Part shown: piece after piece, positions 3,186 through 22,600 of the stretch | Layout: every line of letters starts with the position of its first letter | How positions within the stretch are numbered: the stretch's first letter is position 1 | Assembly (NCBI RefSeq): GCF_902809845.1 | Contig: NZ_CADDWI010000009.1 | Location: 1-64,000 of the forward strand | Reading direction: 5' to 3' | Length of the DNA stretch: 64,000 nucleotides | DNA from: Chelativorans sp. Marseille-P2723 | GTDB taxonomy: Bacteria; Pseudomonadota; Alphaproteobacteria; Rhizobiales; Rhizobiaceae | Position numbers and translations under genes: made by a program | Notes under the pieces: generated by a model | Told to the model about the DNA's origin: nothing | What the model saw: the letters and a program-made list of their open reading frames with translations, nothing else | Database searches by the model: none

Positions 3186-5257
3186 CGTATACGCCCCTCC
3201 AGAAGAAGCACCGTATGAGCGCCAACATCGATCTCGGCCGGCGTTCGGAGCACATCCCAAACCGGCCATCTGCCGGTATCGGTGCGCATTACAATCCTCC
3301 ATCCGGCTGCGCCCAGTTCGCGTGGAAGCTTGAACTCCACAGCTTCCGGGGCAGCATTGAAGAGGATGAGGATGGCGGAGCCATGTGCCTCGCAATGCAT
3401 CAGGCCGAGCGTCCGGAGGTTCGGATCGGCCCAATCCTCATCAACCATCGGTTCGCCGGAAGGGCGCAGCCAGGACACGTCGCGAATACCATCCGCCACC
3501 ATCCTTCCATGCAAAAAGCTTCGATAAGTCAGGCGGGGGCGGGCATGCCGGTACTGGAGCAACTTGCGGACAAACTGAAGGAAAGCCTCATCCTCGGGAT
3601 CAATACCTTCCCAGGGGAGCCAGTTCATCTCATTGTCTTGGCAATACGCATTGTTGTTGCCGTGCTGCGTACGGCCTACCTCATCTCCCATCAGAATCAT
3701 GGGCGTGCCTTGGGAAAGCAGCATGGTGGCGATGGCGTTGCGGCGCATCCTTGCTCGCAGTGCCAGAATGTCGGGATCGTCAGTGGGACCCTCGACGCCA
3801 CAATTCCAGCTTTTGTTGTCGCTGTGGCCGTCGCGATTTTCTTCCTGGTTCGCCTCGTTGTGCCGCTCGTTGTAGCTGTACAGGTCCGCAAGGGTGAATC
3901 CATCATGAGCGGTGACGAAGTTGACGCTCGCCCAAGGCCTGCGTCCCCGGCGATCGAACATGGCGGCCGAGCCCAGAAGCCCGCTGGCAAGATTTGGCGC
4001 CACCTGCTCGTCACCGCGCCAGAAAGATCGAACCCAATCGCGATAAGCACCGTTCCATTCCGCCCAGCCGGGTGGAAAATTCCCTAGCTGGTAACCGTCG
4101 GGCCCGAGATCCCAGGGTTCGGCGATGAGTTTCACGCCTGAAAGAACCGGGTCCTGCCGCACCGTGTCGAAGAAGACCGATGACGGCTCGAAATTGTCAC
4201 GTTCACGCCCAAGCGCGGTGGCCAGATCAAAGCGGAAGCCATCCACATGGCATTCCTCAACCCAGTATCGCAGCGAATCCATGACCATCTGCAACACCCG
4301 AGGGTGCTTCAGGTTAAGCGTGTTGCCGCAGCCGGTGGTGTCATAATAGTAGCGCGGGTCGTCTGCGAGGATGTAATAGCTGGCATTGTCAAGGCCGCGG
4401 AAGGAAAGCGTCGGCCCTAGCTGATTACCTTCAGCCGTATGGTTGTAGACCACGTCGAGAATGACCTCTATGCCTGCCTGATGCAGCTTGCGCACCATAC
4501 GCTTGAACTCATGCAAGCCGCCTGCCGGCGATATGTAGCGCGGGGCCGCTGCGAAGAAGCCGATGGTGTTGTAGCCCCAGTAATTGGTGAGGCGCTTTTC
4601 GACGAGATAGCGGTCGTCAAAGAAAGCCTGGACAGGCAGCAGCTCGATGGCCGTTATGCCAAGCTTGACCAGATAATCGATAACACGGCTGTCAGCGAGG
4701 CCGCCGAAGGTGCCGCGAACCTGCTCGGGCACGTCGGGATGAAGCGCTGTCATTCCCTTCACATGCGCTTCATAGATGATCGTTTCCTGCCATCGACGGC
4801 GCGGGCGAACGTCGTCGCCCCAAGTGGTGGCTGTATCGGTGACCACGCATTTAGGCATGACGAAAGCGGAGTCACGCCGGTCGATCGAAAGATCCTGACG
4901 CTGGGAGCCAACACGGTAGCCGAAGCAGGCGTCATGCCACCGCAAGTCGCCCAGCAGCAGCTTCGCGTAAGGATCGATCAGAAGCTTGTGAGGATTAAAG
5001 CGGTGTCCCCGTGAAGGATCGTAGGGACCGTGGGCGCGCAGGCCGTAGACCTGGCCGGGCCGCATATCGGGAAAATAGCCGTGCCAGACTTCGTGGGTAT
5101 ATTCCGGCAAGGGCACGCGTTGCAACTCGCGCCTACCCTTGGCGTCGAAAATGCATAGCTCGATCTTCTCAGCATGGGCCGAGAATACAGCTACGTTGAC
5201 ACCCGAACCATCCCATGTGGCGCCAAGAGGAAACGGAAGACCGGCATCAACGTGCAT
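3182..5257 (-). CDS. glgX: Glycogen debranching enzyme (isoamylase type)
   Basis: Hydrolyses alpha-1,6 branch linkages of glycogen-like glucan, supplying linear chains to TreY/TreZ and MalQ. The protein has 691 residues and begins MHVDAGLPFPLGATWDGSG, the usual start of the GlgX/TreX family. An N-terminal CBM48 domain (about 8-110) is followed by a GH13 barrel and a C-terminal beta domain. Catalytic residues by position are D344 (DGFRFDLATALG), E380 (LIAEPWD) and D452 (TAHDGFTL). The stop overlaps the treZ start, and the gene begins 7 bp after the glgB stop, so it is translationally linked to both. No frame damage or missing active-site residue was seen. Whether it prefers phosphorylase-limit dextrin or intact branched glucan cannot be told from sequence. 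Confidence 0.95.
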   Translation of the reverse strand: MHVDAGLPFPLGATWDGSGVNVAVFSAHAEKIELCIFDAKGRRELQRVPLPEYTHEVWHGYFPDMRPGQVYGLRAHGPYDPSRGHRFNPHKLLIDPYAKLLLGDLRWHDACFGYRVGSQRQDLSIDRRDSAFVMPKCVVTDTATTWGDDVRPRRRWQETIIYEAHVKGMTALHPDVPEQVRGTFGGLADSRVIDYLVKLGITAIELLPVQAFFDDRYLVEKRLTNYWGYNTIGFFAAAPRYISPAGGLHEFKRMVRKLHQAGIEVILDVVYNHTAEGNQLGPTLSFRGLDNASYYILADDPRYYYDTTGCGNTLNLKHPRVLQMVMDSLRYWVEECHVDGFRFDLATALGRERDNFEPSSVFFDTVRQDPVLSGVKLIAEPWDLGPDGYQLGNFPPGWAEWNGAYRDWVRSFWRGDEQVAPNLASGLLGSAAMFDRRGRRPWASVNFVTAHDGFTLADLYSYNERHNEANQEENRDGHSDNKSWNCGVEGPTDDPDILALRARMRRNAIATMLLSQGTPMILMGDEVGRTQHGNNNAYCQDNEMNWLPWEGIDPEDEAFLQFVRKLLQYRHARPRLTYRSFLHGRMVADGIRDVSWLRPSGEPMVDEDWADPNLRTLGLMHCEAHGSAILILFNAAPEAVEFKLPRELGAAGWRIVMRTDTGRWPVWDVLRTPAEIDVGAHTVLLLEGRIR

Positions 5258-5264
5258 GCTTCAT

Positions 5265-7487
5265 CTACCCAGGTTCGCGGATCAGAACAGTGCTGCCGAG
5301 CGGAGGCAGCCTCAGTTCAGCCGATGCCGGCCGCCCATGCCACGGCTCTTCCGTTACCTCCAGAACCCCGTTGGTCACGCCGGAGCCGCCATAACGGACG
5401 TCGTCACTGTTTAGGATTTCCCGCCAACGGCCAGCTTCAGGCAGGCCAATGCGGTATCCTTCGCGGGGAATGGGCGTGAAGTTGCAGGCGACAACGACCT
5501 GCGGCGCTTCGACGTTACCCTTGCGCAGATAAATGAATACGCTGAGGTCGGGATTGGATGCGTCGATCCATTCGAAACCTGCCGCTTCGCAATCCAGTTC
5601 GTGGAGCGCTCTATGGTTGCGGTAAATCCCGTTTAGGTCACGGATAAGATCGTGCACGCCCCTATGCAGCGGATCGTCGAGATGGTGCCAATCGAGCTGC
5701 CAATCATGGTTCCATTCGCGCTCCTGTGCGAACTCGCCTCCCATGAAGAGCAGCTTCTTGCCCGGATGCGTCCACATGAAGGTGAAGTATGCCCGCAGAT
5801 TAGCGAATCTCTGCCAGCGGTCGCCCGGCATGCGCCCGATTAGCGATCCCTTTCCGTGCACTACTTCATCATGGCTCAAGGGCAGGATGAAGTTTTCAGA
5901 AAAAGCATACACCAGGCCGAAGGTCATCTGGTTATGATGATGCCTACGATGGATAGCGTCGCGCTTCATGTAATCAAGCGTGTCGTGCATCCATCCCATG
6001 TTCCACTTGAAGCCGAAACCCAGGCCCCCGTCATGGACGGGCCGGGAGACACCTGGGAACGCGGTGGACTCCTCGGCAATCGAGGTCGCACCGGGATGCT
6101 TCGAGAACAGCGCGATGTTGGTGTCGCGCAGGAAGGCAATTGCCTCCAGGTTCTCGTTGCCGCCATGAACATTCGGCACCCACTCGCCAGGCTGGCGGCT
6201 GTAATCGAGATACAGCATCGACGCGACCGCATCCACGCGTAAGGCATCGACATGATACTGATCGATCCAGAAGAGCGCATTGGCAGCGAGGTAATTCGCA
6301 ACCTCCCGGCGGCCGAAATTATAGATCAGCGTGTTCCAGTCGCGATGGAACCCAAGCCGCGGGTCGGCGTGCTCGTAAAGGGCGGTTCCGTCGAACCGGA
6401 CCAAGCCGTGGGCATCGGACGGAAAATGCGCCGGCACCCAATCGATGATCACGCCAAGCCCCTCGACATGGCAGCGGTCGACGAAGCGTGCGAATTCCTC
6501 GGGTTCGCCAAAGCGGCTAGTGGGCGCATAAAGCCCGACGGGTTGGTAACCCCAGGAGCCGGAGAAGGGATGCTCGCTGACAGGCAGGCATTCGATATGC
6601 GTGAAGCCCAGATCTTTCACATACGGGATGAGCCGGTCAGCAAGCTCTCCATAGGACAGATAGCCGCCATCGTCGCGTCTCCGCCAGGAGCCGAGATGCA
6701 CCTCATAGATGGAAATCGGGGCACTGCGATCATTGCGCGCGGCCCGGCTTTCCATCCATTGCACATCTTGCCATTCGTACCGGGGAAGACCCTTGACCAC
6801 GGAGGCGGTCGCCGGCGGCACCTCGCTTGCAAAGCCTACAGGGTCGGCCTTGGCAGGTAGCATCTCTCCGTGCGCGCCAATGATCTCGTATTTATAGATG
6901 GCTCCGGATCCCACTCCCGGCAAGAAAAGTTCCCATACGCCGATGGCTGGATGCCGCCGCATCGGATGCCTGCGGCCGTCCCAATCGTTGAAAATTCCCA
7001 CAACGCTGACCCGACTGGCGTTAGGGGCCCAAACGGCGAAGCGGGTGCCCTCGACACCCTCGCAGCGTAATGGGTGCGCTCCCAGCTTGTCGTAAAGCCG
7101 GAAGTGGCGGCCTTCACCGAAAAGATGGCGATCGAGTTCTCCAAGCGTACTGTGGAAGCGATATGGGTCCTCCTCCTCCCAAACATCCCTATCCCGTCTG
7201 AAACGCAGCCGGTAAGCAGGAGTGTCCTGTCCGTTCCCAATCAGTCCTTCAAAAAACCCTCTTGCATGACGCTTCAGCAGCTTGCCAAGGCTCCTGCCCG
7301 ACACTGGATCAAATGGCTCGGCGCTGTCGGCTTCCGGCCGCAGGACGCGAAGGACGATGCCGGCATCTGTCCTGTGCGGCCCGAGCACTGCAAAGGGGTC
7401 ACCATGCCGCCCCGCCACAAGCGCAGCTATCGCGTGGGGGTCAGCAAGCCGCCAGGATGGGAGCGGGCTCTCCTCCACCGCATTCAT
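5265..7487 (-). CDS. glgB: 1,4-alpha-glucan branching enzyme
   Basis: Makes alpha-1,6 branches by transferring segments of linear alpha-1,4-glucan; here it would act on the polymer made by GlgE. It is 740 residues, close to the two-CBM48 type of GlgB. The catalytic triad is D419 ([10 protein letters not shown]), E472 (AEESTAFPG) and D540 ([11 protein letters not shown]). The spacing of 53 between the first two equals that between D405 and E458 of E. coli GlgB as I recall it. [25 protein letters not shown] and WVPAHFP are further GlgB signatures. The start ([12 protein letters not shown]) overlaps the treS stop by 4 bp (7484-7487). Adjacent glgE and treS make a GlgE-pathway role more likely than a classical GlgC/GlgA pathway; no glgA or glgC is in the window. 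Confidence 0.97.
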
Positions 7488-10400
7488 TCGCCCGGCCCTT
7501 CCATGAGGTTGAGCACACCCTGAAGGGGAATAGCGACCCAGTCTGGACGGTTGGAGAGCTCATAATTGACCTCGTAAAGCGCCTTTTGCAGCAGGAACAA
7601 TTGCAAAAGTGCATCCCGGGTTACTTGCTCATCGGTCCCGCTTACCGGGCTACCCGCGACCGCCGAGTAACCTGCGAGAAACTCACCTGACATGCGGTCG
7701 CGCCATCGCGCGGCGAGCGCTTCGCTGTCCCGCGACTGATCGGGAAGCCGCGCGGCCACCTGGCGCGCCGCGGTTGAGGCGGCATAATCGAACGAACGCA
7801 GCATCCCGGCCAGATCGCGCAAGGGTGAAGTCTTGGCCCGGCGTTCCGCAAGGGAGCGGCGAGGCTCGCCCTCGAAGTCAATGATGAAGAGATCCTGTTG
7901 CGCCACCAGCACCTGTCCCAGATGGTAATCGCCATGAATACGGGTCTTCATGCCGGAAGGCCGGATCCTGCGCAGGCCGGCGAGTCGGCGGTCCAGGTTG
8001 CGTGCCAAGGAAAGCACATGTTCCGCCATTTCCCTGCTTGTCGGGGGAAGGCGTTCGAGTGCATTTCCCAGGCCGGTTCGAACGGTGGAAAGCTCCGCCC
8101 TGGCATCCTTTACCCATTCGTCAATATCGGCACGGCGGACTGGCTCGGCGCGAAACGACTCAATATCCGTCTTTATGGCGAGGGCCGCATGCATCTGCCC
8201 CGACCGTTCTCCCAGCCGATAGATGAGATCGAGAGGGTAAACGAATGGAATTGGCATATTTTCAGCGGATGGAGGTGACAGGATTTCATCCTCCATGTGG
8301 CGCTCCAGGGCATGCACGAACACGCTCCAGGCGTCTCCCTGATTCTCGATATAGGCTGCAACGCTCACGAGTACCGTGTTCTCCTCTCCCTCCTCTAAAA
8401 GTTCAATGCTGCCCAGGAAGGCAGGTGTATTCGTGAAGCCTGCCTCCTCGGTAAGAAAACGCGCCACCTCGACTTCCGGCTGGTGGCCCGGACGGAGACG
8501 GCGGAAGATCTTCATGAGCGCCTGTCGGCCAAAAGCGATGGAAACATTGCTTTGCTCCTGCCTGAGTGCGGAGGGTGGCTCTGCGAAGCTCATCTCTGTC
8601 AATTTCTGGCTCCCGTAGAAGCGTAGAACGCCTCCAGGGCCGGAAAGTTCGCGGCCCGCCTGCATGCACCGCATCAATTCGGACGCGAAACGCTCATCAT
8701 AGGACCCGTCGACAAGCGCTCCCAACTGAGCACCCCGGCGCACGCGGGCAAGCGTGGCAGAGAGGCTGGGGGCGCCGTACAGCACGTGCTCCTCGCCCCA
8801 GAGAATGCTCAATGGCAGCAGGTAGTGCTGATTGCCCGAAGCAAGATCGACCTCGACTATGGCAAGCAATCCGGCCTCTTCATCGAGCCTTGCCAGCTCG
8901 CGGATGCGTGCAGAGCGTATTTCCTCGCTCTTGGCGCCGAACCATCGCTGACGTTGAAGAAACGGAGCCAGCACGTCCTCTTCAAGCTGTCGCAGCGCCC
9001 GTCCTTCCAGCACCCGCTCGATGTTCGTGCGCACCAGGGTCAGCGTAATGAATTCGGGAAGCGGCTCCGGAACGGGTGCATGCCAGTGCGGCGCCTGCGA
9101 TTCATCGGCGATCAGAAACCAGAAGGCACCGTAGCTTGAGAGCGTCAGCATATAAGGCAGGTCGCCAATGGGCGGAAAAGGCGAGTGGCTGATAAGTTCT
9201 ATGGGGACGCAGCCACGATATTTTGAAAGATCAAGCTCTACTGCCTGCGCTGAACGGGAAAGATTAGCCACGCACAGGATGGTCTCGTTACCGTCGCTTC
9301 GCGTATAGGCGAGAATGCGGCGATTGCCGGGATAGAGCATGGTGAAGTCGCCGCGCCCGAAGGCCGGATGCTGTTTGCGTACGGCGATCATCCGGCGGAC
9401 CCAGTTGAGCAGCGAAGACGGGTCCGTCTCCTGCGCCTCCACATTGATGGTTTGATAGCCATAGATCGGGTCCATGACCGGCGGCAGATAGAGCATCTGG
9501 GGGTTGGCGCGCGAGAAACCCCCATTGCGATCAGGCGACCACTGCATTGGCGTGCGGACCCCATCACGGTCGCCCAGATAGATATTGTCGCCCATGCCCA
9601 GTTCGTCCCCATAATACATGACCGGTGTGCCGGGCATCGACAGGAGCAGCGCGTAGAGCAGTTCGATCTTGCGCCGGTCGTTCTGCATCAGCGGCGCAAG
9701 CCTGCGGCGGATGCCTAGATTGATGCGTGCACGCACGTCCTCTGCATAGGTACGCCAGAGGTAGTCGCGTTCGCGGTCCGTCACCATTTCCAGCGTCAGC
9801 TCGTCGTGGTTGCGTAGGAAAATGGCCCATTGGCAGCTTTCAGGAATCTCCGGCGTCTGCCGCATGATGTCGGAGATGGGGTGCCGGTCCTCCTGCGCGA
9901 GCGCCATGTAGATGCGTGGCATAAGCGGGAAGTGGAAGGCCATGTGGCATTCATCGCCATCGCCGAAATAGGGACGGGTGTCCTCGGGCCACTGATTGGC
10001 TTCGGCAAGCAGCATACGGTCCGGATATCGCTCGTCCAGCGCGGCCCTAAGCTTCTTCAGGATTTCGTGCGTTTCCGGAAGGTTCTCGTTGTTCGTACCA
10101 TCGCGCTCGACCAAATAGGGAATCGCGTCCAGCCGAAGCCCGTCAACGCCCATATCAAGCCAGTACCGCATGATCTTGATGACCTCATCAAGAACGCGCG
10201 GATTGTCGAAGTTTAGATCCGGCTGATGGGAGTAAAACCGGTGCCAGAAGAACTGTCCGGCAACCGGGTCCCAGGTCCAGTTGGATTTTTCCGTGTCCAG
10301 AAAGATAATGCGCGTTTCGGGGTAGCGCTCGTCATCGTCGTTCCAGACATAGAAGTTGCGCGCAGCAGAACCTTTCCTGGCGTGGCGCGCGCGCTGGAAC

Positions 10401-10804
10401 CAGGGATGCTGATCGGAAGTGTGATTGATGACAAGTTCCGTGATGACGCGGATCCCCCTCCGGTGTGCTTCCGCCACGAAACGGCGGAAATCCCGCATCT
10501 TCCCGTATGCAGGATTGATGGCGCGGTAGTCGGAGATGTCGTAGCCGTCGTCGCGCAGCGGCGAGGGATAGAAGGGAAGCACCCAGATGGTGTTCACCCC
10601 CAGCCGCTCTATGTAATCGAGCCGCTGCAAAAGCCCGTTGAAATCTCCGATTCCATCGCCATTGGAATCGTGAAACGCCTTGATATGAAGCTGGTAGATG
10701 ATCGCGTCCTTGTACCAGTCGGCTGCATCCGCCGTTTCCGGGGGGAGCCCGGCTTGCCGATCGCCCGTATCTGCCGCTGCAACAAGCGTTTCCGTCGCGT
10801 TCAT
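7484..10804 (-). CDS. treS: Trehalose synthase fused to maltokinase
   Basis: Bifunctional 1106-residue protein. The N-terminal half (about 30-570) is trehalose synthase, which interconverts trehalose and maltose. The C-terminal half (about 650-1106) is maltokinase (Mak/Pep2), which makes maltose 1-phosphate with ATP. TreS catalytic positions are D226 ([10 protein letters not shown]), E268 ([10 protein letters not shown]) and D334 (RNHDELTLE). The kinase part shows the aminoglycoside-phosphotransferase-like signature [12 protein letters not shown] followed by FIIDFEGEP. The ATG at 10802-10804 is chosen because it overlaps the glgE stop (ATGA) and gives the normal N-terminus; the longer open frame runs into glgE. 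Fusing the two steps would channel maltose straight to the phosphate donor used by GlgE. TreS-Mak fusions are known in several proteobacteria. Confidence 0.95.
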
Positions 10805-13150: not shown

Positions 13151-16100
13151 ATGGGCTCGGCATACTTATCGTCGAGCGCGGGAGGCCGCCGCCAACTCCA
13201 TGCGAGCGGCAGTCGGCTGGCGCTTATTTTCGCCGTAGCCCTGCTGGAGGTTGCATTTTCAGCAAGCCCGGCCGGGGCTGTATACGTGGCCCCCACCTCA
13301 CCATGTACGCCGTCGTCTCAGGTAATGCCCGACGGTTGGATGAAGGCAAGTTCGGATTCCGGGGGGTGTACGAACGGAAATCAATACCAGGGTTATGACG
13401 AGTATTTTTGGGATCCACCAATACCCCCTGCCCCGAACGGAGACGCCACCTGGCTGAGCGTCGATGGCAGAGGCAGCGCTGCACGGACGATGATCACCGG
13501 GTTGACGCCGGGTGTGGTCTACAGGCTTGACATGTATGCTTCCACCTCAAATATCGGAGGCACTAAACACCCAGTATACACCAGCTGCAGCGCTGCCACA
13601 GTCGCTGTCGGCGCGCATAGTCGCGAGACTCGACTTACACCGGTCCAGTGGGTACCTGCGCCTTTCCAGTTCACTGCTAACCATCATGAGTATCCCCTGG
13701 AATTGTCTTCACAAGGCGGATTTTGCACGGCGAACTTCTATCTCCGTGGCATTTCATGGATGAACAAGACGCTGGTTTCCCAGAGCCTGCCGAACAATCC
13801 GTCCGCCCAACGGAATGAGCGCCTCACCTACCGGATTGAGATATTCAATGTGGGCCCTGCTGTATCCTATGATATTCAGGACATGCTCGACCCGAACGTG
13901 ATCTTCCGCTTCGACCTATATAACGGCGAGCAACCCGAGAACGGCAATATCAACTGGTCGAATGTCTCCGTGCCGGCCGGGTCTCCCGAACAGCCCGGAA
14001 GACTTGTGCTTGACATTGCTGTCGATATGCCAAATCTGTATCCTGCGAATAGTGATGGGTACATCCGCAACATGGTTCGATATGCGGATCTGGAAGAGGC
14101 GGGATGTCCCTCTACCCATTGCCAGATGACACCTATTAGCGGGTCGGGCTGGGGCGGCGGTGGCGGCGGGCCGGGCGATCCCGGCGAGCCCGGTGGCAGC
14201 AGCCCCGCGCCAACGCTGAAGAAGCAACTGACCGGAGAGGAGACGCCCGACGGCCTGGTATCGCCCGGTGAGCTTCTCACATACACGATCACCGTTACCA
14301 ACCGCGGCTCGGCCATCTCCAGTTATCAACTGGAGGACGTTCTCGGCGCAGACCTTCAGTATGTGGATTCCAATCCTCCGGCCACGAATATGAGCCTGGG
14401 GAGCGACGGCTTCGGCGGCAGCGTCGGGTGGACGCTCAATCTGCCCGCGGGCACGGATGCTGCCCCTTCGCAAACGACACTCACGGTAAGGGCGCGAGCA
14501 CGCTCACCTCTGCCAGTCAATGCAAATCTCAGAAACTTCGTCCGCAGGTCCGGTGGCCCTACGCCGAACTGCCAGATATCCGAGCAGTGCGTTGACCCCG
14601 ATGCCGCCGGTATACGCATAGAAAAAAAGCTATCCAGCGATGAGAATGGCGATGGATTGGCATCTCCCGGCGAGACGCTGAAGTATCTCATCACCGTTAC
14701 AAATCCCGGTGCCGCGGTTTCGGGTTTCCATCTACGCGACGTGCTCGGTGACGATCTGCGCCATGTAATCTCGTTCCCCCAAGGGTCAGTATCCGGCGCT
14801 GACCCGGATGGTTTTGGCGGCACCCTCAGTTGGACAACCGATCTTCCCGCAAGCAGCGTCCGGAATTTTCAGGTTCATGCCGTCGTCCGCGACGCACCCC
14901 CTCAGAATGCGGATCTGAAGAACTACGCTGCAGGACCTGGCGACGGCGAGCCGGCTGATTGCGAGGATGCGGCGCGCTGCGTCGAGCTCGATTTGGGGCC
15001 AGGACTATCGCTCATCAAGCAGGGCGTCTGGAATGACGACGGCAATGGCATAGCCGAGGAGGGTGAGACCATTACCTACACCTTCACCGTCAGGAATACT
15101 GGCGGCGTCCCACTCAACGACATCACTGTTGACGATCCCAATATTCCCTCCATTCCGGGCAGTCCGATCACTTCCCTGGCAGCGGGTGCGTCGCAGATCC
15201 TCACCACCACCTATACGCTGACGCCCGCCGACATCGCCGCCGGCCAGGTAGTCAATGCCGCAACCGTTACGGGAAGGTCATCAGAAGGTGTGGAGGTTAC
15301 CCATACAACGGAAGTGATCACGCAGCTTGCCTCCGTGAGCATAGACAAGGCATTTGTCGCCGACGGTGACGGAGACGGCGAAATCTCTCCCGGCGAGGAA
15401 CTCACCTACAAGGTGACATTGACCAACAACACCGAGCAGATCGCCCTCTATGACCTCAGGGACGACATAGACAACAACACCACCTATGTGGCAGGCTCGT
15501 CGCTCGTGGACGGGACGCCGCGGGAGCCCGACCAGACCGGCGATCCCCTTGCCTGGAATGGTCTCGCAATAGCTGCGAACGGGACAATGGAGATCACCTA
15601 CAGAGTTGTCGTGAGTGATCCCCTTGCTGCCAATGTCACGGAAATCCGGAACCTCGCCTACAGGGAAGGCGACACGCCGCCCGACTGCGATGTGACGCCC
15701 CGTCCGGATAACTGCGAAAGCGTTCCTATCAGCCCCTTTGTCGTAGAAAAAAGCCTCATAGGGGATGCGGATGGCGATGGCTATGCCTCACCAGGCGAGG
15801 AACTCACCTATAAGGTGACGATCACCAATAATGGCGAGGAGGGGCCCTTCCGCCTTGTCGATAATATCGACGACAACACCACCTATGTCGCAGACTCCTC
15901 GACAGTTGACGGCGTTGCGCAAGAACCTAACCAAACCGGCGACCCGCTGGTGTGGAACTTTTTCGCGCTGCCCGGCAATAGCTCTGTAGAAGTTGTTTAC
16001 AAAGTGCGTGTCGGCCAGATTCCGGCAGGCGTTACGCAGATCCGCAACGTGGCTTACAACTCTGAACGCCGCGAGCCGAACTGCGATGCGACACCCCTAC

Positions 16101-17920
16101 CCACGCATTGCGAGATCGTGCCGGTTTATCCCGTGACGATCGAGAAGGATCTTCAGCTCGACGAAAATGGCGACGGCTATGCCGCCCCCGGCGAGGAGCT
16201 TACCTATCGGGTCATCCTGAGAAACAACACAGCCGCGCCGATTTCCTACAACCTCACGGATGATATCGATAACAACACAACCTACGTGCCCAACTCTTCC
16301 CGTATCGATGGCGTCTTACAGAACCCGGATCAGACTACCGATCCGCTCGTGTGGAACAATATCACGGTCCCTGCGAACGGCACGGCGGAAGTGACCTACA
16401 GCGTCATCGTGGACAGCCCACTTCCCGCCGGCGCAACCGAAATCCGCAACGTTGCTTTCGAGAGCGGAACCACCCCGCCCGACTGCGATAATTCGCCCTT
16501 GCTCGGCAACTGCGACACCGTCCCGGTTCAATTGTTCAGCATAACCAAGGCGCTGACCGGCGAGAGCATCAGTGACGGCTACGCCTCGCCCGGCGAGGAG
16601 CTCACCTATACGGTGACCCTCACCAACCTCACCGACCAGCCCGTCACCGGCTACGCGCTCACCGACGACATCGACGACAACACCGTCTATGTCGCCGGAT
16701 CGACCGCCGGCACGGCCGGCGCCGGCGAGCCGGCCGGCACCGACCCGCTGGAGTGGAGCGGCATCACCCTGCCTGCCAACAGCGCCGTGACCGTCGAATA
16801 CAAGGTGCGCGTCAAGCCGGCGGCGGAGATCCTGCCCGGCACCACCAGCCTGCGCAACATCGCCTATGAGGCGGGCACAACACCGCCCGACTGCACCGCA
16901 AGCCCGGCGCCGGCCAGTTGCGAAGTGACACCGTTCCCCACGGGCGATGTCGAACAATGGTCACTGACCAAGACGGCGGGGCTTCGTTATGTCCGTCGTG
17001 GAGAGCAGGTCCCGTTCACCATCCGTCTTGTGAATAATACGGATGTGCGAGCGGAAGGCCTGACGATAACGGATACGGTGCCATCAGGCTTCAGATATGT
17101 GGAGGGAACAGCCACCGTGAATGGAGTGGAAACGGCTCCTGTTATCGAGGGTCACAGCATCCGCTTTGCCAACCTCTCCATCGCTGCGCATCACGAACTC
17201 TCGATCCAACTGAGATTCCACGTTCTGAGTTCAGCCGGCGCCGGAGAAAAGATAAACCGCGCAGATGTCACGGACAGGAACGGCAAAGCCCTGGCTCCGA
17301 CAACCAGTGCAAAAGTTGAGGTTCTCGCCGAAGCCGTACTCGATTGCGGAGAGGTCCTTGGCAGGGTGTTCGACGACGTCAACCGCAACGGCTACCCCGA
17401 CGAAGGGGAGCGTGGACTTGCCGGTGTCCGCCTCGCTACTGTTGAAGGATGGCTGATCACAACGGACGAACATGGGCGCTTCCACATCGCCTGTGCCGAC
17501 CTTCCCGATGGACGTACGGGTTCAAACTTCATCATGAAGCTTGACCCTCGCACGCTGCCCACGGGATACAGGCTGACTACGGAAAACCCGCGCGTTATCC
17601 GCCTGACGCCTGGAAAGACGAGCCGCATCAATTTCGGCGCCTCAATCGGCCGGGTGGTTCGCCTCGACCTGAACGACAGTGCATTCGTTCCCGGCAGCTT
17701 CGAACTCGACCCCGCCTGGGCGGCTGGAATCGATCAGCTCATTGCCCTGCTTGATAGCGAGCCTTCGGTTCTGCGCCTGAGCTACTTCGGGACGGCCTCG
17801 GACATGACACTTGCCCGGCAGCGGCTCAAACATGTCAAGGACCTGATTACCGAACGCTTTGAACAGTCGCTCTCCGATTACCATCTGAGTATCGAGACGC
17901 ATTTGGAGATCGGGGAATAG
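13151..17920 (+). CDS. Giant exported DUF11-repeat protein with calcium-loop motifs
   Basis: 1589 residues; not tied to any characterised protein. A signal peptide (about 1-43, hydrophobic LALIFAVALLEVAF, cleavage after SPAGA) precedes an N-terminal beta-rich domain (about 44-210). About nine Ig-like DUF11 units follow, starting near 213, 354, 488, 619, 729, 863, 995, 1129 and 1270. A Gly/Pro linker (331-353) splits the first from the rest. Most unit starts read as an acidic loop plus PGEE, for example DGDGDGEISPGEE, which resembles an EF-hand or dockerin calcium loop. Residues 1398-1490 resemble an SdrD B-like domain (GRVFDDVNRNGYPDEGERGLAG), and 1491-1589 a divergent OmpA-like end. Repeat proteins of this kind are usually surface adhesins or scaffolds. 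The next gene encodes a large beta-barrel, which suggests a functional pair. The start is uncertain because no good ribosome-binding site precedes 13151. Confidence 0.8.
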   Translation: MGSAYLSSSAGGRRQLHASGSRLALIFAVALLEVAFSASPAGAVYVAPTSPCTPSSQVMPDGWMKASSDSGGCTNGNQYQGYDEYFWDPPIPPAPNGDATWLSVDGRGSAARTMITGLTPGVVYRLDMYASTSNIGGTKHPVYTSCSAATVAVGAHSRETRLTPVQWVPAPFQFTANHHEYPLELSSQGGFCTANFYLRGISWMNKTLVSQSLPNNPSAQRNERLTYRIEIFNVGPAVSYDIQDMLDPNVIFRFDLYNGEQPENGNINWSNVSVPAGSPEQPGRLVLDIAVDMPNLYPANSDGYIRNMVRYADLEEAGCPSTHCQMTPISGSGWGGGGGGPGDPGEPGGSSPAPTLKKQLTGEETPDGLVSPGELLTYTITVTNRGSAISSYQLEDVLGADLQYVDSNPPATNMSLGSDGFGGSVGWTLNLPAGTDAAPSQTTLTVRARARSPLPVNANLRNFVRRSGGPTPNCQISEQCVDPDAAGIRIEKKLSSDENGDGLASPGETLKYLITVTNPGAAVSGFHLRDVLGDDLRHVISFPQGSVSGADPDGFGGTLSWTTDLPASSVRNFQVHAVVRDAPPQNADLKNYAAGPGDGEPADCEDAARCVELDLGPGLSLIKQGVWNDDGNGIAEEGETITYTFTVRNTGGVPLNDITVDDPNIPSIPGSPITSLAAGASQILTTTYTLTPADIAAGQVVNAATVTGRSSEGVEVTHTTEVITQLASVSIDKAFVADGDGDGEISPGEELTYKVTLTNNTEQIALYDLRDDIDNNTTYVAGSSLVDGTPREPDQTGDPLAWNGLAIAANGTMEITYRVVVSDPLAANVTEIRNLAYREGDTPPDCDVTPRPDNCESVPISPFVVEKSLIGDADGDGYASPGEELTYKVTITNNGEEGPFRLVDNIDDNTTYVADSSTVDGVAQEPNQTGDPLVWNFFALPGNSSVEVVYKVRVGQIPAGVTQIRNVAYNSERREPNCDATPLPTHCEIVPVYPVTIEKDLQLDENGDGYAAPGEELTYRVILRNNTAAPISYNLTDDIDNNTTYVPNSSRIDGVLQNPDQTTDPLVWNNITVPANGTAEVTYSVIVDSPLPAGATEIRNVAFESGTTPPDCDNSPLLGNCDTVPVQLFSITKALTGESISDGYASPGEELTYTVTLTNLTDQPVTGYALTDDIDDNTVYVAGSTAGTAGAGEPAGTDPLEWSGITLPANSAVTVEYKVRVKPAAEILPGTTSLRNIAYEAGTTPPDCTASPAPASCEVTPFPTGDVEQWSLTKTAGLRYVRRGEQVPFTIRLVNNTDVRAEGLTITDTVPSGFRYVEGTATVNGVETAPVIEGHSIRFANLSIAAHHELSIQLRFHVLSSAGAGEKINRADVTDRNGKALAPTTSAKVEVLAEAVLDCGEVLGRVFDDVNRNGYPDEGERGLAGVRLATVEGWLITTDEHGRFHIACADLPDGRTGSNFIMKLDPRTLPTGYRLTTENPRVIRLTPGKTSRINFGASIGRVVRLDLNDSAFVPGSFELDPAWAAGIDQLIALLDSEPSVLRLSYFGTASDMTLARQRLKHVKDLITERFEQSLSDYHLSIETHLEIGE
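15335..16957 (+). repeat. Four tandem DUF11 units, about 132-141 codons each
   Basis: Units begin at 15335, 15737, 16133 and 16535, giving periods of 402, 396, 402 and 423 bp. Each has the same order: an acidic loop with PGEE, LTYKVTxTNN, DDIDNNTTYV, DPLxWN, a VEVxYKVRV strand, then a short Cys-containing end (PPDCD and NCE). The paired cysteines near each unit end could form a disulphide in the exported protein. The similarity also shows at DNA level around the DDIDNNTTYV segment. Confidence 0.85.
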
Positions 17921-18868
17921 CAAGAGGGGGAGCGGCGCATCAGGCGCCGCTCCTCCGTTCCAAATACGCCCAAAATGTGCCGATGCCGCCTGAGTGCGGC
18001 AAGCGAATTCGCCCTCCAGATTAAAACACGGTAAGCGGACGGAACGGGATCGAGCCTGCACCGCAAGTTGCATCGGCGGAAGTATAGGTCCTCCGGAAGT
18101 CACACAGTTCTTTTTGCTGCCGTTCAGTTTAAGCCGTTATGCGTCTTTAAAGGTCTTCGAGGAACTGCCTGTGAGCAGGCCCCAGTAACGCGTAAAGGGC
18201 GGCTGCAAGCTGCTTCCATCAAGTTTCCGGATTCTCGGAGTTGTGCGCTCAGGCCCGAGGATGCATTGGGATGAGCAACGGCGTCCTTGCACGCATTCTT
18301 ACGGAACCCTGCTTCGGCGGGACACCGAATGCGCGTACACCTGGCCGCTTTCCGGCTAGCCGTATTTTCCCTCCAGTACTTGGAATAGATGTTGATTATC
18401 CAGGGCGTTACTGGACTTTCCAAGCAGCCGCGTAAACGATGGCGCATATTTAAACGTGAATACATTTATCGTTTTACTGGAAGCGGTTATGCCGGATTTT
18501 GCACGCTGGATCCGCGGAAGCGCCGATGCTCCGGATGCGGCTACTAGTTATCCTAATGAGCTATGGCCCATTCTCGAGGGCAATGCGTGCGCTGTTTCCC
18601 TGTCACGTATACGCTCTGGTCCGCAGGCTGATCTTTTGTACCAAACGTCGGGCGCCATATCGAACCTGAGCGCCGGCGATGCTCACAAGTACCCCGATAT
18701 ACCCGGCCTGCATTCCTGTGCGGTCACCAGCGCAACAGCCCCGGCACACCGCGTACCCTCCCGTATCTTTTCTGGACCCGCGCAACCGCCAAACCAGCGT
18801 TCATCCCGCGAGGATGGCGTCAAGCAAACCAACGAAAACACCATCGACACCCGAGTGGAGAACGATCG
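17921..18868. other. 948-bp gap between the two large envelope genes
   Basis: Apart from the hairpin at its left end I see no supported gene. The stretch 18440-18480 is AT-rich and could hold the promoter of the beta-barrel gene. An open frame from a GTG at 18456 to 18872 (138 codons) ends in an ATGA overlap with the beta-barrel start, but it has no ribosome-binding site, no recognisable domain and unremarkable composition. An untranslated leader of several hundred bases or a decayed gene is possible. Confidence 0.5.
17929..17953 (+). terminator. Strong GC hairpin after the DUF11-repeat gene
   Basis: A perfect 10-bp stem, GGAGCGGCGC with GCGCCGCTCC, encloses a 5-nt loop and starts 9 bp after the stop codon. 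There is no clear T run behind it, so it may be a weak or Rho-assisted terminator or an mRNA-end stabiliser. Confidence 0.55.
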
Positions 18869-21800
18869 ATGATATCCCGCAACAAGCCTGCTGATCTTGA
18901 CAGCTTGCCCGTAAGTCGAGCGTCGGGCCTCCGTTCCATCCTCCTGACGGGTACCGCGCTCCTTGGCGGCATCCTTGCAGGCCCGGCTCTTGCTGAAGGA
19001 CTGGGCGGCGACCTGCGATTTGGCAATTCCACATCCAGTCCTCCGGCAACGGAGAATACGGAGAAGGAGACGATTCTCGACACCCCGCCAATTCCGTTCA
19101 TGATCAGCGTGGACGGTGTTCCCATCGACGCCAGCATCGAACCGGAGCGACTGGCGCCGGGCACGACGCTGCCGAATTCAAGACCTGTCGATCGGCAGCG
19201 TCAAACCGATGTGGGATTGAGCGCTGTCGACATTCAGGTGAAATTCGACGGCCTTGACCTTGCGCCCATGCTTAACGTCTCCACCGTCCCCATTCGCCGC
19301 GCCTACCTTCCCGGGGATGAGGTCCGCTTCCTTGCGACATCCAACTACCCAGCCTTCATCGAACGCGCGGAGATCCGGCTGTACGAGATCGGCGGAGGGC
19401 CTGCCGGAGAGCCGGTCAATATCGTTCCCGTACGAATCAATAGCGAGGCTAGCTGGGTGATGCCTGATGTTGGCGGCCCGGATTTCGCCTATGTGCTGCG
19501 TGTATATGATGCTTCGGGACGATATGACGAAACCGTCCCGCTAACGCTCCACCGTTCTGCCCGGGAACTGCCCTCACTGTCCGAGCAAACCCGATCCGAA
19601 GCCCCCGGCATGGCCGAAGACCGCACCGCCTTTCGTAACATTCCCGTAAGGGGCGGTGCCGTGACGGTCTATGGCCGCCACGTGCCACCGGGCTATACGG
19701 TCGAGGTCCTGGGTGATCCGATTCCGCTCGATTCAAACCAGGCATTCGTCGCACAACGTATCCTGCCATCGGGAGATCATTCGGTTGACGTTTCCGTGGC
19801 CGGCACCTCGAAAACGGGCGGGCTCGCCTTCAGCCGCGACATCAACATTCCGTATAATGACTGGTTCTATGTGGCGCTGGCGGATTTTACCTTAGGAAAG
19901 CGCTTCGGCGACGATCTCATAGAAACCGTTCGGCCAGGCGAGTTCGATGATGTCTACACCAAAGGCAGACTCGCCTTCTATCTGAGGGGGAAGATCAAGG
20001 GTGAGTATCTTCTGAAAGCGGCCGCAGATACCGGAGAGGAGGACCTTGACAAAATCTTCCGCGACCTCGACGCGAAGGACCCGCGCCAGCTGCTGCGCCG
20101 CCTCGACCCGGACAATTACTATCCGATATATGGCGATGATTCCGCCTTTCAGGAGGATGCCCCCACCAACGGCAAGTTTTATGTGCGGCTTGAGCGCGGA
20201 GACAGCCATGTCATGTGGGGCAACTACCGCACACAGGTGCGAGGAACCGAGTTTCTTCGCTCGGAGCGTGCGCTCTACGGTGCTTCCGCGGTATACCGGT
20301 CGGAATCGGCTACTACCTTCGGGGAGCGACGCACTGAGATCACCGGCTATGCCGCCCAGCCCGATACGCTGCCCCAGCGCGAGGAATTCTCCGGGACAGG
20401 CGGTTCCGGCTATTTCCTGAAGCGTCAGGATATCGTCGAAGGTTCCGAAACGGTGGCGATAGAGATTCGCGATGCCGTAAGCCAGCGTGTAATCAGGCGC
20501 CGTGTGCTTGTCCACGGGCAGGATTACGATTTTGACTACATGCAGGGCGTGATTATCCTCAGACGCCCGCTAATGTCCGTGAGCGTTCCCGACAGCCCCG
20601 TTCGGGATGGCGCGTTGGGTGGAGAGCGTCAGGTACTCACCGTACAATATGAGTTCGAGCCGCTGGGCCGCGATATTGACGGTTATACCTATGGAGGCCG
20701 TGGCCAGCACTGGCTGAATGAAATGGTGCGGATCGGTGCGACCGGGATGAAGGAAGGCACTGGCCCCGCAGATCAGCAAGCCTATGGCGCCGACGTGACC
20801 TTACGTCATACCGAAGAAACATATCTGTCGGCGGAGATTGCCAGATCAAAGGGCCCGGGTTTTGGCAGACTGAGATCCTATGATGGAGGCCTTACCTGGG
20901 GCAGCCAAGGGAGCACCGGCGATGCGGAGCACGGCGCCGACGCCTGGCGGATCGAGGGACAGGCCGCTCTTGAAGATTTCGCTGTGGGTCTGAAAGGACG
21001 TCTGGGAGCCTATTATGAGGAAAAGGACGCAGGTTTTTCGACGCTTTACGATCAGATTTCCGCAAAGCGCCACATCTGGGGAGCAGAAGCAAGGCTAGAG
21101 ATGACCGATAATATCGGCCTCCGGCTCGTCTATGACGACTTCACAGACGATACTGGGAAGTTTGAGCGCGAGGGAACAGCAAGCGTCAGCTATCAATTCG
21201 ACGCCCATTGGAAAGTCTCCTTCGGCGTCAGCTATACCGAACTGATGTCACCCACGGCCGTAGCTGCTCGGAAGTCCGGTTACGACGGCTCAAGGACAGA
21301 TGCTGGGGTGCGCGTAGATTACCGGATCGATGACGACCGACTCGTTTATGGCTTTGCTCAGGGCACTGTGGACCGCTCCGGCGATATCGACAATAACGAC
21401 CGGGGAGGCTTGGGCGCAGAGATCCGGCTTACCGAGAAGATCGGCCTCAATGGCGAGATCTCTTACGGTACCAATGGCTTCGGCGCATTGGCCGGCCTAA
21501 CTTACGATCCGACGGCGGATGACCACCATTATATCGGCTATCGGCTCGACCCGGACCGCGCCTTTGAATTCGACCTTGGCCATGATCTGTTCGGCACGGA
21601 CCGGGGAGCCGTCGTTGCAGGCACCCGACGGCGGATGGGAGACGCAATTTCGGCCTATGCTGAAAACAGCTATGACATGTTCGGCGCTCGGCGTTCGCTA
21701 GCCCAGACCTATGGCGTGGTGTACACGCCTGACGCCATGTGGACCGTAGATGCCGGACTTGAAATGGGGCTCATACGCGATGACACGCTGGACGGCGCAG

Positions 21801-22600
21801 GGAGGGAAAATTCGGATTTCGACCGCTACGCCCCTTCCCTTTCGCTGGGCTACCGGGACGAGGAAGCGGGGATTAAGGCCCATGCTCGGGGCGAGGTGCG
21901 CATAGAACGTTCCGAAGACGAAACGCGTGACCAGAACACCTATCTTATTGCTGCGGGTCTCGGCTGGAAAGCCAACGAGGACTGGCGGGTAATGGGGAAT
22001 ATCGATACCCTGATGTCTGATACCCAGTCTGAGGAAACATTCTTTGCCAATACGGATTATATCGAAGCATCGCTAGGTTATGCCTACCGACCGGTCAACC
22101 ACGACCGCCTCAATGCACTCTTCAAATATACGTGGCTTTACGATCTGCCCGGCAACGATCAGGTAATCAGCACCGCCACGGGCGATCTCAACGCACCGGG
22201 CCAGAGGAGCCACATTCTTTCGGCCGACATTTCGTATGAATTGACACATTGGCTGTCCGTCGGAGGCAAATACGGCGTCCGCATCGGCGAGGTGCGTTAT
22301 CGTGTGAATGACGGAGCAGGACGGGCCTTTGAGGAAGAGTGGCAGCGCTCGACCGCTCATCTGGGGATCATCCGTACCGACCTGCATCTGGTGAAGAACT
22401 GGGACCTCCTGTTAGAAGGGCGGATCCTGCATATGAAGGACGATTCAACAGATTTCGGCGCCCTTGCTGCCGTATACCGTCATGTCGGGGAAAATTTCAA
22501 AATCGGGATCGGCTATAATTTCGGGCGTTTCTCCGATGATCTGCGCGATCTTACCCTGAACGATCAGGGCGTCTTCCTCAATCTGGTTGGAAAGTTCTGA
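18869..22600 (+). CDS. Large outer-membrane beta-barrel protein paired with the DUF11-repeat protein
   Basis: 1243 residues, function unknown. A signal peptide (about 1-42, ending GPALAEG) is followed by a low-complexity linker, two beta-sandwich-like segments (about 100-330), and a conserved central block around YYPIYGDDSAFQEDAPTNG, then KFYVRLERGDSHVMWGNY. I associate this block with large outer-membrane proteins that co-occur with DUF11/OmpA-type repeat proteins; that link is from memory. A segment with VEIRDAVSQRVIRRRVL and VIILRRPL follows. From about 600 onwards alternating polar/aromatic strands continue to the C-terminal LNLVGKF, where the final Phe fits the BamA recognition signal. 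A GGAG site lies 9 bp before ATG 18869. It could export, anchor or display the upstream repeat protein. It lacks an obvious TonB box, so TonB-dependent uptake is less likely. Confidence 0.78.
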   Translation: MISRNKPADLDSLPVSRASGLRSILLTGTALLGGILAGPALAEGLGGDLRFGNSTSSPPATENTEKETILDTPPIPFMISVDGVPIDASIEPERLAPGTTLPNSRPVDRQRQTDVGLSAVDIQVKFDGLDLAPMLNVSTVPIRRAYLPGDEVRFLATSNYPAFIERAEIRLYEIGGGPAGEPVNIVPVRINSEASWVMPDVGGPDFAYVLRVYDASGRYDETVPLTLHRSARELPSLSEQTRSEAPGMAEDRTAFRNIPVRGGAVTVYGRHVPPGYTVEVLGDPIPLDSNQAFVAQRILPSGDHSVDVSVAGTSKTGGLAFSRDINIPYNDWFYVALADFTLGKRFGDDLIETVRPGEFDDVYTKGRLAFYLRGKIKGEYLLKAAADTGEEDLDKIFRDLDAKDPRQLLRRLDPDNYYPIYGDDSAFQEDAPTNGKFYVRLERGDSHVMWGNYRTQVRGTEFLRSERALYGASAVYRSESATTFGERRTEITGYAAQPDTLPQREEFSGTGGSGYFLKRQDIVEGSETVAIEIRDAVSQRVIRRRVLVHGQDYDFDYMQGVIILRRPLMSVSVPDSPVRDGALGGERQVLTVQYEFEPLGRDIDGYTYGGRGQHWLNEMVRIGATGMKEGTGPADQQAYGADVTLRHTEETYLSAEIARSKGPGFGRLRSYDGGLTWGSQGSTGDAEHGADAWRIEGQAALEDFAVGLKGRLGAYYEEKDAGFSTLYDQISAKRHIWGAEARLEMTDNIGLRLVYDDFTDDTGKFEREGTASVSYQFDAHWKVSFGVSYTELMSPTAVAARKSGYDGSRTDAGVRVDYRIDDDRLVYGFAQGTVDRSGDIDNNDRGGLGAEIRLTEKIGLNGEISYGTNGFGALAGLTYDPTADDHHYIGYRLDPDRAFEFDLGHDLFGTDRGAVVAGTRRRMGDAISAYAENSYDMFGARRSLAQTYGVVYTPDAMWTVDAGLEMGLIRDDTLDGAGRENSDFDRYAPSLSLGYRDEEAGIKAHARGEVRIERSEDETRDQNTYLIAAGLGWKANEDWRVMGNIDTLMSDTQSEETFFANTDYIEASLGYAYRPVNHDRLNALFKYTWLYDLPGNDQVISTATGDLNAPGQRSHILSADISYELTHWLSVGGKYGVRIGEVRYRVNDGAGRAFEEEWQRSTAHLGIIRTDLHLVKNWDLLLEGRILHMKDDSTDFGALAAVYRHVGENFKIGIGYNFGRFSDDLRDLTLNDQGVFLNLVGKF

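Follow-up and report, generated by a model that had tools for sequence, protein, structure and literature searches.

Fibrillar adhesins with DUF11 stalks are the closest described systems to the one reported here. According to PMC12617251, the DUF11 domain, renamed CLIPPER there, is cross-linked by an isopeptide bond between Lys and Asn, an Asp being the presumed catalyst; the paper presents the crystal structure 9IFR together with tests of thermal and protease stability. The CLIPPER adhesin B9T28_05395 of Acinetobacter silvestris has a tandem DUF11/DUF7507 stalk with Lys-Asp-Asn triads, a variable head, and an envelope-facing C-terminus with an OmpA-like anchoring domain; the available text describes no barrel partner and leaves unexplained how giant DUF11/CLIPPER fibres are delivered to the surface of Gram-negatives (PMC12617251). 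Here we analyse a stretch of 64,000 nucleotides from Chelativorans sp. Marseille-P2723 (the window; part of contig 9 of a 3.77 Mb genome), which carries gene A, for a protein with this type of stalk, followed by gene B, for a predicted outer-membrane barrel. That A and B form one system is well supported, based on adjacency, co-occurrence and fusion. With about even confidence, we propose that A is a surface fibrillar adhesin and B its dedicated outer-membrane partner, which would export the fibre and hold its base.

13151..17920, + strand: gene A, secreted fibrillar-adhesin-like protein of 1589 residues (ORF translation and profile matches)
17921..18868, + strand: A-B gap of 948 bp, unusually long (pair comparison)
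18869..22600, + strand: gene B, predicted outer-membrane barrel partner of 1243 residues (open reading frame (ORF), profile and structure model)

Stalk, triads, variable head and envelope-facing C-terminus of B9T28_05395 all recur in A. Two features differ: a separate conserved barrel gene is present here, and A ends in a conserved SdrD-like domain and a small domain unrecognised as OmpA. Two other systems serve as analogies. In the chaperone-usher pathway, the barrel FimD passes folded immunoglobulin-like (Ig-like) domains outward, as B may do, but B has no usher match and the A fibre is a single polypeptide without pilin subunits. In type V secretion, each passenger is paired with a barrel of its own, either fused to it or encoded separately, which resembles the relation of A and B. 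Unlike type V systems, however, neither A nor B has an autotransporter, POTRA/FhaC-type or TPS-domain match (E up to 1). The barrel region of B presumably exceeds type V barrels in size. SprA of type 9 secretion and SlpA of Deinococcus are very large barrels, and both are among the Foldseek matches of B, at low TM-scores (0.14-0.20 by query) and with no sequence match. The literature searched, which lacked most subscription papers and preprints, held no description of this A-B gene pair. The CLIPPER stalk is known; the barrel partner and the split or fused relation were not found described.

Pairing of A and B across genomes

The initial annotation of the window, made from the sequence alone, proposed that the barrel exports, anchors or displays the repeat protein, and set co-occurrence of the two families across genomes as a test. 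We compared 80 B loci in named genomes, the top-ranking ones among at least 569 matches; close relatives dominate this set. In 62 of the 72 loci that could be evaluated, A lies upstream of B in the same orientation, and 10 have no A beside B; the other eight were left out of the rate because B begins less than 2.6 kb from the locus start. A B-frame ATG, GTG or TTG stands at, or at most 12 nt before, the end of the A stop codon in 54 of 60 pairs, a count without chance control (L149 and L150 fall outside the position window of this check). Among 101 relatives, the A C-terminus and B occur together in 21, B alone in 3, A alone in 2 and neither in 75 (Fisher 1.8e-16). The four counts come from a manual tally. 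Because a single genus supplies 14 of the 21 genomes that have both, the Fisher value makes the genomes look more independent than they are. In two of the genomes scored as B only (G076 and G098), the locus is one long ORF that also weakly matches the SdrD-like domain. The proposed partnership is thus borne out by adjacency, co-occurrence and fusion, while the export part of the claim is inferred.

The B profile matches 57 of 398 Pseudomonadota genomes. From 38 of these 57 we took 40 loci, roughly by score, leaving out the window's own and that of the closer relative G084. Split pairs with A upstream make up 21 of the 40; in another 15, one ORF shows a weak SdrD-like match (16-45 bits) ahead of the B core. 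The rest comprise one long ORF with the core only, one locus with B first and two that are cut. The B-first score of L186 was given by eye: its downstream gene looks DUF11-like, yet the stalk profile fails to match. In G084, the fusion is clear: one ORF of 2079 residues contains the whole of B and the A C-terminal module (201 bits). A-B pairs are present also in Vibrio campbellii, Eleftheria and the cyanobacterium Kovacikia. Of five distant homologues scanned, four have a PF00691 OmpA domain, three at the B N-terminus and one between the SdrD-like part and the core; because of these domains, the base of the fibre is predicted to sit in the periplasm.

A matches exceed B matches in several genomes (4 versus 1 in G055, for example), although some A matches are partial, and tandem A genes occur among such A-rich genomes (e.g. 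G001, G004, G013 and G055). The 948-bp gap of the window gives only weak, short A matches (best E 0.066) without a clear coding remnant; blastn finds no counterpart of it in eight related loci or elsewhere in the window, and it is single-copy in the genome.

Several side observations concern the same gene families. A second A-type gene of the window's genome lies on contig 13 of G000 (locus L009, 5196-10729); its C-terminal module is the same as that of the window A, and it is broken into overlapping frames (5196-6887 and 6722-10729) by a frameshift or an assembly error. B fragments stand at contig ends in G002, G005, G012, G014 and G036 (L068-L077), with near-equal scores for paired fragments in G002 and G036; such fragments hint at multi-copy B collapsing in assemblies. 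One contig of Pseudorhizobium tarimense, NODE_18, holds several A-B pairs (L084, L090 and L103); in L084, two pairs face each other with a broken A-type frame in each. On plasmid p4 of Acinetobacter haemolyticus (L162), DUF11 genes cluster around two others, one for an A-B type fusion protein and one for a separate protein of the OmpA family, and a transposase gene comes next. Among the B loci without A, gene lists were read for L113 and L146. Upstream of B lies a gene that we take to be biotin-carboxylase-like, and downstream one that we take to be carboxyltransferase-like. In L146 the downstream gene closely adjoins B; in L113 about 7.7 kb separate the two.

Stalk and base of the A protein

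The domain layout of A is as follows.

13151..13279, + strand: likely signal peptide, residues 1-43 (translation read by eye)
13280..13795, + strand: N-terminal domain, residues 44-215, probable distal tip, varying among A genes (homologue comparison)
13796..14155, + strand: first DUF11-type unit, without the isopeptide lysine (translation read by eye; outside the eight-unit alignment)
14219..17305, + strand: eight DUF11/DUF7927/DUF7507 units, all with a Lys-Asp-Asn triad; acidic loop ahead of seven, cysteine pairs in six (profiles and alignment)
17306..17653, + strand: SdrD_B/CnaB-like domain, the most conserved of seven regions compared (profile, model and identity comparison)
17654..17917, + strand: small alpha/beta domain at the C-terminus, OmpA-like only in its predicted topology (structure model)

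Nine stretches of A match the DUF11 repeat TIGR01451 (E 5.5e-58). TIGR04226, an isopeptide-forming fimbrial domain, is above its cut-off, the Pfam families DUF11, DUF7927 and DUF7507 all match, and SdrD_B matches below the family cut-off. Both A and B appear to begin with Sec-type signal peptides, as judged by eye from the translations. A long protein with such a signal peptide and a tandem DUF11-family stalk is, by sequence, fibrillar-adhesin-like and of the DUF11/CLIPPER type, a kind of stalk that is already known. Most of what the initial annotation read in A agrees with these results: two tandem plus-strand genes, both with signal peptides, about nine DUF11-like units, most of them headed by acidic loops, and an SdrD B-like region. 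Its view that neither gene is of a characterised type stands for B and fails for A.

The N-terminal domain of the window A has no Pfam domain above cut-off and, in the homologue comparison, is shared only with L009 and L050. In the heads of eight other paired A proteins, we found CshA_NR2 (1.2e-42) together with GEVED in one, DUF6923 in four and SpaA_2 in three, and a sub-threshold DUF642 match in one. The longest A gene seen, in Sulfitobacter guttiformis, reaches 18,588 bp.

All eight aligned units carry a Lys in the first strand, an Asp, and an Asn near the end; the isopeptide lysine is missing from the first unit of A. Paired cysteines are present in six of the eight. An acidic loop ending in GE heads seven of the eight, two of the seven loops being degenerate, so calcium is at most one stiffener among several. 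Predicted Lys-Asn isopeptide bonds and disulfides are probably the best account of the stiffness of the fibre; the calcium-stiffened fibre suggested in the initial annotation survives as an addition to them. We modelled the C-terminal 326 residues of A (pLDDT 90.3, pTM 0.66). The crystal CLIPPER domain 9ifr superimposes on the last unit of the model with Z 13.2 and 3.3 Å over 121 residues. The first two domains of the model together resemble Gram-positive pilins and SdrD, with a large root-mean-square deviation (rmsd).

Across 46 shared A-B pairs, the SdrD-like domain has a mean pairwise identity of 0.75. The preceding unit (0.42) and the following domain (0.41) are less conserved, and parts of B range from 0.53 to 0.67. 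A variable head, a repeated stalk and a constant base are what one would expect of a surface fibre with a common docking domain. On the other hand, the last approximately 90 residues, read earlier as a divergent OmpA-like region, match PF00691 in none of 55 family members, and hhalign against OmpA gives a probability of 14% (E 0.0019, 46 columns). OmpA homology was therefore rejected for want of sequence support, although the predicted strand-helix-strand-helix-strand order would be compatible with the OmpA fold.

The predicted barrel protein B

We divided B into the following parts.

18869..18994, + strand: likely signal peptide, residues 1-42 (translation read by eye)
19229..19555, + strand: putative Ig-like domain 1, residues 121-229 (strand pattern and pLDDT)
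19625..19849, + strand: putative Ig-like domain 2, residues 253-327 (strand pattern and pLDDT)
19868..22597, + strand: predicted barrel region, residues 334-1243 (structure model)
20120..20227, + strand: conserved core YPIYGDD...FYVRLERGDSHVMWGNY, residues 418-453 (family profile)
20396..20578, + strand: short-strand segment TGGSGYFL...GSET...EIRD...DY..DYMQG, residues 510-570, within the barrel region; plug-like by position, with a putative plug role (profile and model)

The C-terminus of B reads ...NLVGKF, and the structure model places 37 strands, each eight residues or longer, from model residue 304 onward, a count that is an estimate from a model of moderate quality (pLDDT 69.8, pTM 0.66). 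Both observations agree with the barrel-type end and terminal Phe that were noted at the outset. A profile of 60 relatives shows strong conservation around YPIYGDD; the core described earlier as YPIYGDD...APTNGKFYVRLERGDSHVMWGNY is indeed conserved, but it is contiguous rather than split.

B falls in no characterised family by our sequence comparisons. Generic barrel families give sub-threshold matches only, and no TonB plug, TonB-receptor barrel, usher, POTRA/FhaC-type, autotransporter or DUF560 (Slam) family of Pfam matches B at E up to 1. The type 11 (Slam/DUF560) exporter was rejected on this ground. A link to type 11 through the word DUF11 was dropped as well, since the word matches in the available text of PMC12282271 are largely to DUF1194. 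PDB sequence searches with A, with B and with profiles of B and of the A C-terminus returned no credible relative (best chance-like E 0.0084 and 0.02). We recognised no TonB box by eye in residues 41-130. By structure, the model resembles many barrels, with SlpA, LptD, TonB receptors and SprA among the Foldseek matches. FimD is the top VIA-align match (9fxs_D, Z 15.8, rmsd 13.9 over 339 residues); another FimD-chain alignment, to 3ohn_B, has an rmsd of 5.9 over 322. Both alignments are partial, against an usher architecture of 24 barrel strands with plug and end domains.

Proposed mechanism and rival explanations

In the mechanism that we propose, A would cross to the periplasm via Sec. There its DUF11 (CLIPPER) units may take up Ig-like folds, each locked by an isopeptide bond between Lys and Asn, by disulfides and, for some units, by a bound metal. 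The SdrD-like domain would dock on the periplasmic face of B, at the Ig-like domains or the barrel mouth. The N-terminal tip and the stalk would then exit through the barrel, leaving the C-terminal domains of A as the base. We infer these steps, namely isopeptide formation, docking, passage through B and the direction of export. The fused single polypeptides of many other bacteria would be the counterpart of the split pair, and where several A genes accompany one B, B might serve them in trans. A bolder form of this proposal is tentative and, in our judgement, rather doubtful: B would be a new export channel, one huge barrel with perhaps 30 to 40 strands, through which Ig-domain fibres would leave already folded and isopeptide-locked, a CnaB/SdrD-like C-terminal domain being the part that it recognises. 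Occurring split and fused across Pseudomonadota and in at least one cyanobacterium, it would give single-chain fibrillar adhesins a secretion route of their own.

A number of points weigh against the proposal that B exports A and holds its base. The physical link between A and B is argued from sequence. In a distance-matrix (mirror-tree) test, from which L126 and L157 were excluded, the SdrD-like domain is no more closely correlated with B than is the DUF11 unit beside it, and all three 95% intervals include 0 (46 pairs); specific A-B co-evolution was accordingly dropped as support for docking. Folded, cross-linked domains would demand an unusually wide pore. The strand number and pore width of B come from a mediocre model and are unproven, and the likeness to ushers, LptD, SlpA and SprA may be mere barrel-ness. 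In the distant single ORFs, the C-terminal part is presumed to be a related barrel, and the barrel profile matches 2 of 16. The Pfam scan finds no adhesive head above cut-off in the window A, and an explicit one in only one of the eight other N-termini. The ten B loci without a neighbouring A all come from Chelativorans and Nitratireductor, the second A gene of the window's genome has no adjoining B, and the window's A-B gap, unlike that of nearly all other pairs, is so long that it ranks first among 63 when distance to the B core is compared.

Three rival explanations share part of this evidence. A could reach the surface by another route, with B only anchoring or assembling the fibre and its barrel and Ig-like domains holding the base. 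Adjacency and fusion are equally compatible with such a role. The OmpA domains of the distant homologues favour it, as does the Gram-negative CLIPPER adhesin with an OmpA-like anchoring domain, in the main text of whose description the terms outer membrane, secret- and export are absent (PMC12617251). We consider it unlikely, and a barrel region of about 900 residues seems far above the apparent need of an anchor. A could also be a periplasmic scaffold or spacer between the peptidoglycan and the barrel, with B a porin or receptor. The same OmpA domains place the base in the periplasm, and 7 of 25 plasmid records label B a TonB-dependent receptor. The adhesive CshA_NR2 head of one paired A protein, the length of the longest A gene and the lack of a plug or TonB-receptor match in B speak against a spacer, which we regard as improbable.

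The plasmid records would suit equally a third possibility, that B is a stand-alone TonB-type nutrient receptor beside an adhesin gene by chance. In Phyllobacterium sp. 628 (L165, 19207-22784), B is indeed followed by a siderophore-interacting gene, exbB, exbD and tonB. However, homologues of ExbB, ExbD or TonB occur in only 1 of the 80 named-genome loci (L100, from the same Phyllobacterium record) and in none of the 40 phylum loci; at least 3 kb downstream of B is held by 60 of the 80. Given also the regular adjacency to A, the fusions and the missing plug, we rejected this identity as very improbable indeed; the initial annotation had named a stand-alone TonB-type receptor as an outcome that would refute its reading. 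Our best reading sees in B a dedicated barrel for exporting the fibre, or at least for holding it. The OmpA domains of homologues, the long A genes, the adhesive head of a relative and the fusions favour a stalk outside and a base in the periplasm, with B as the conserved outer-membrane element alongside.

A conserved barrel that co-occurs or is fused with DUF11/CLIPPER fibres is a concrete, testable candidate for their surface delivery. If B does export folded, covalently cross-linked domains, this would be a route beyond the secretion types tested here. It would also change the naming of a large family, with at least 569 related stretches, whose annotated plasmid copies are now called TonB-dependent receptors in 7 of 25 cases.

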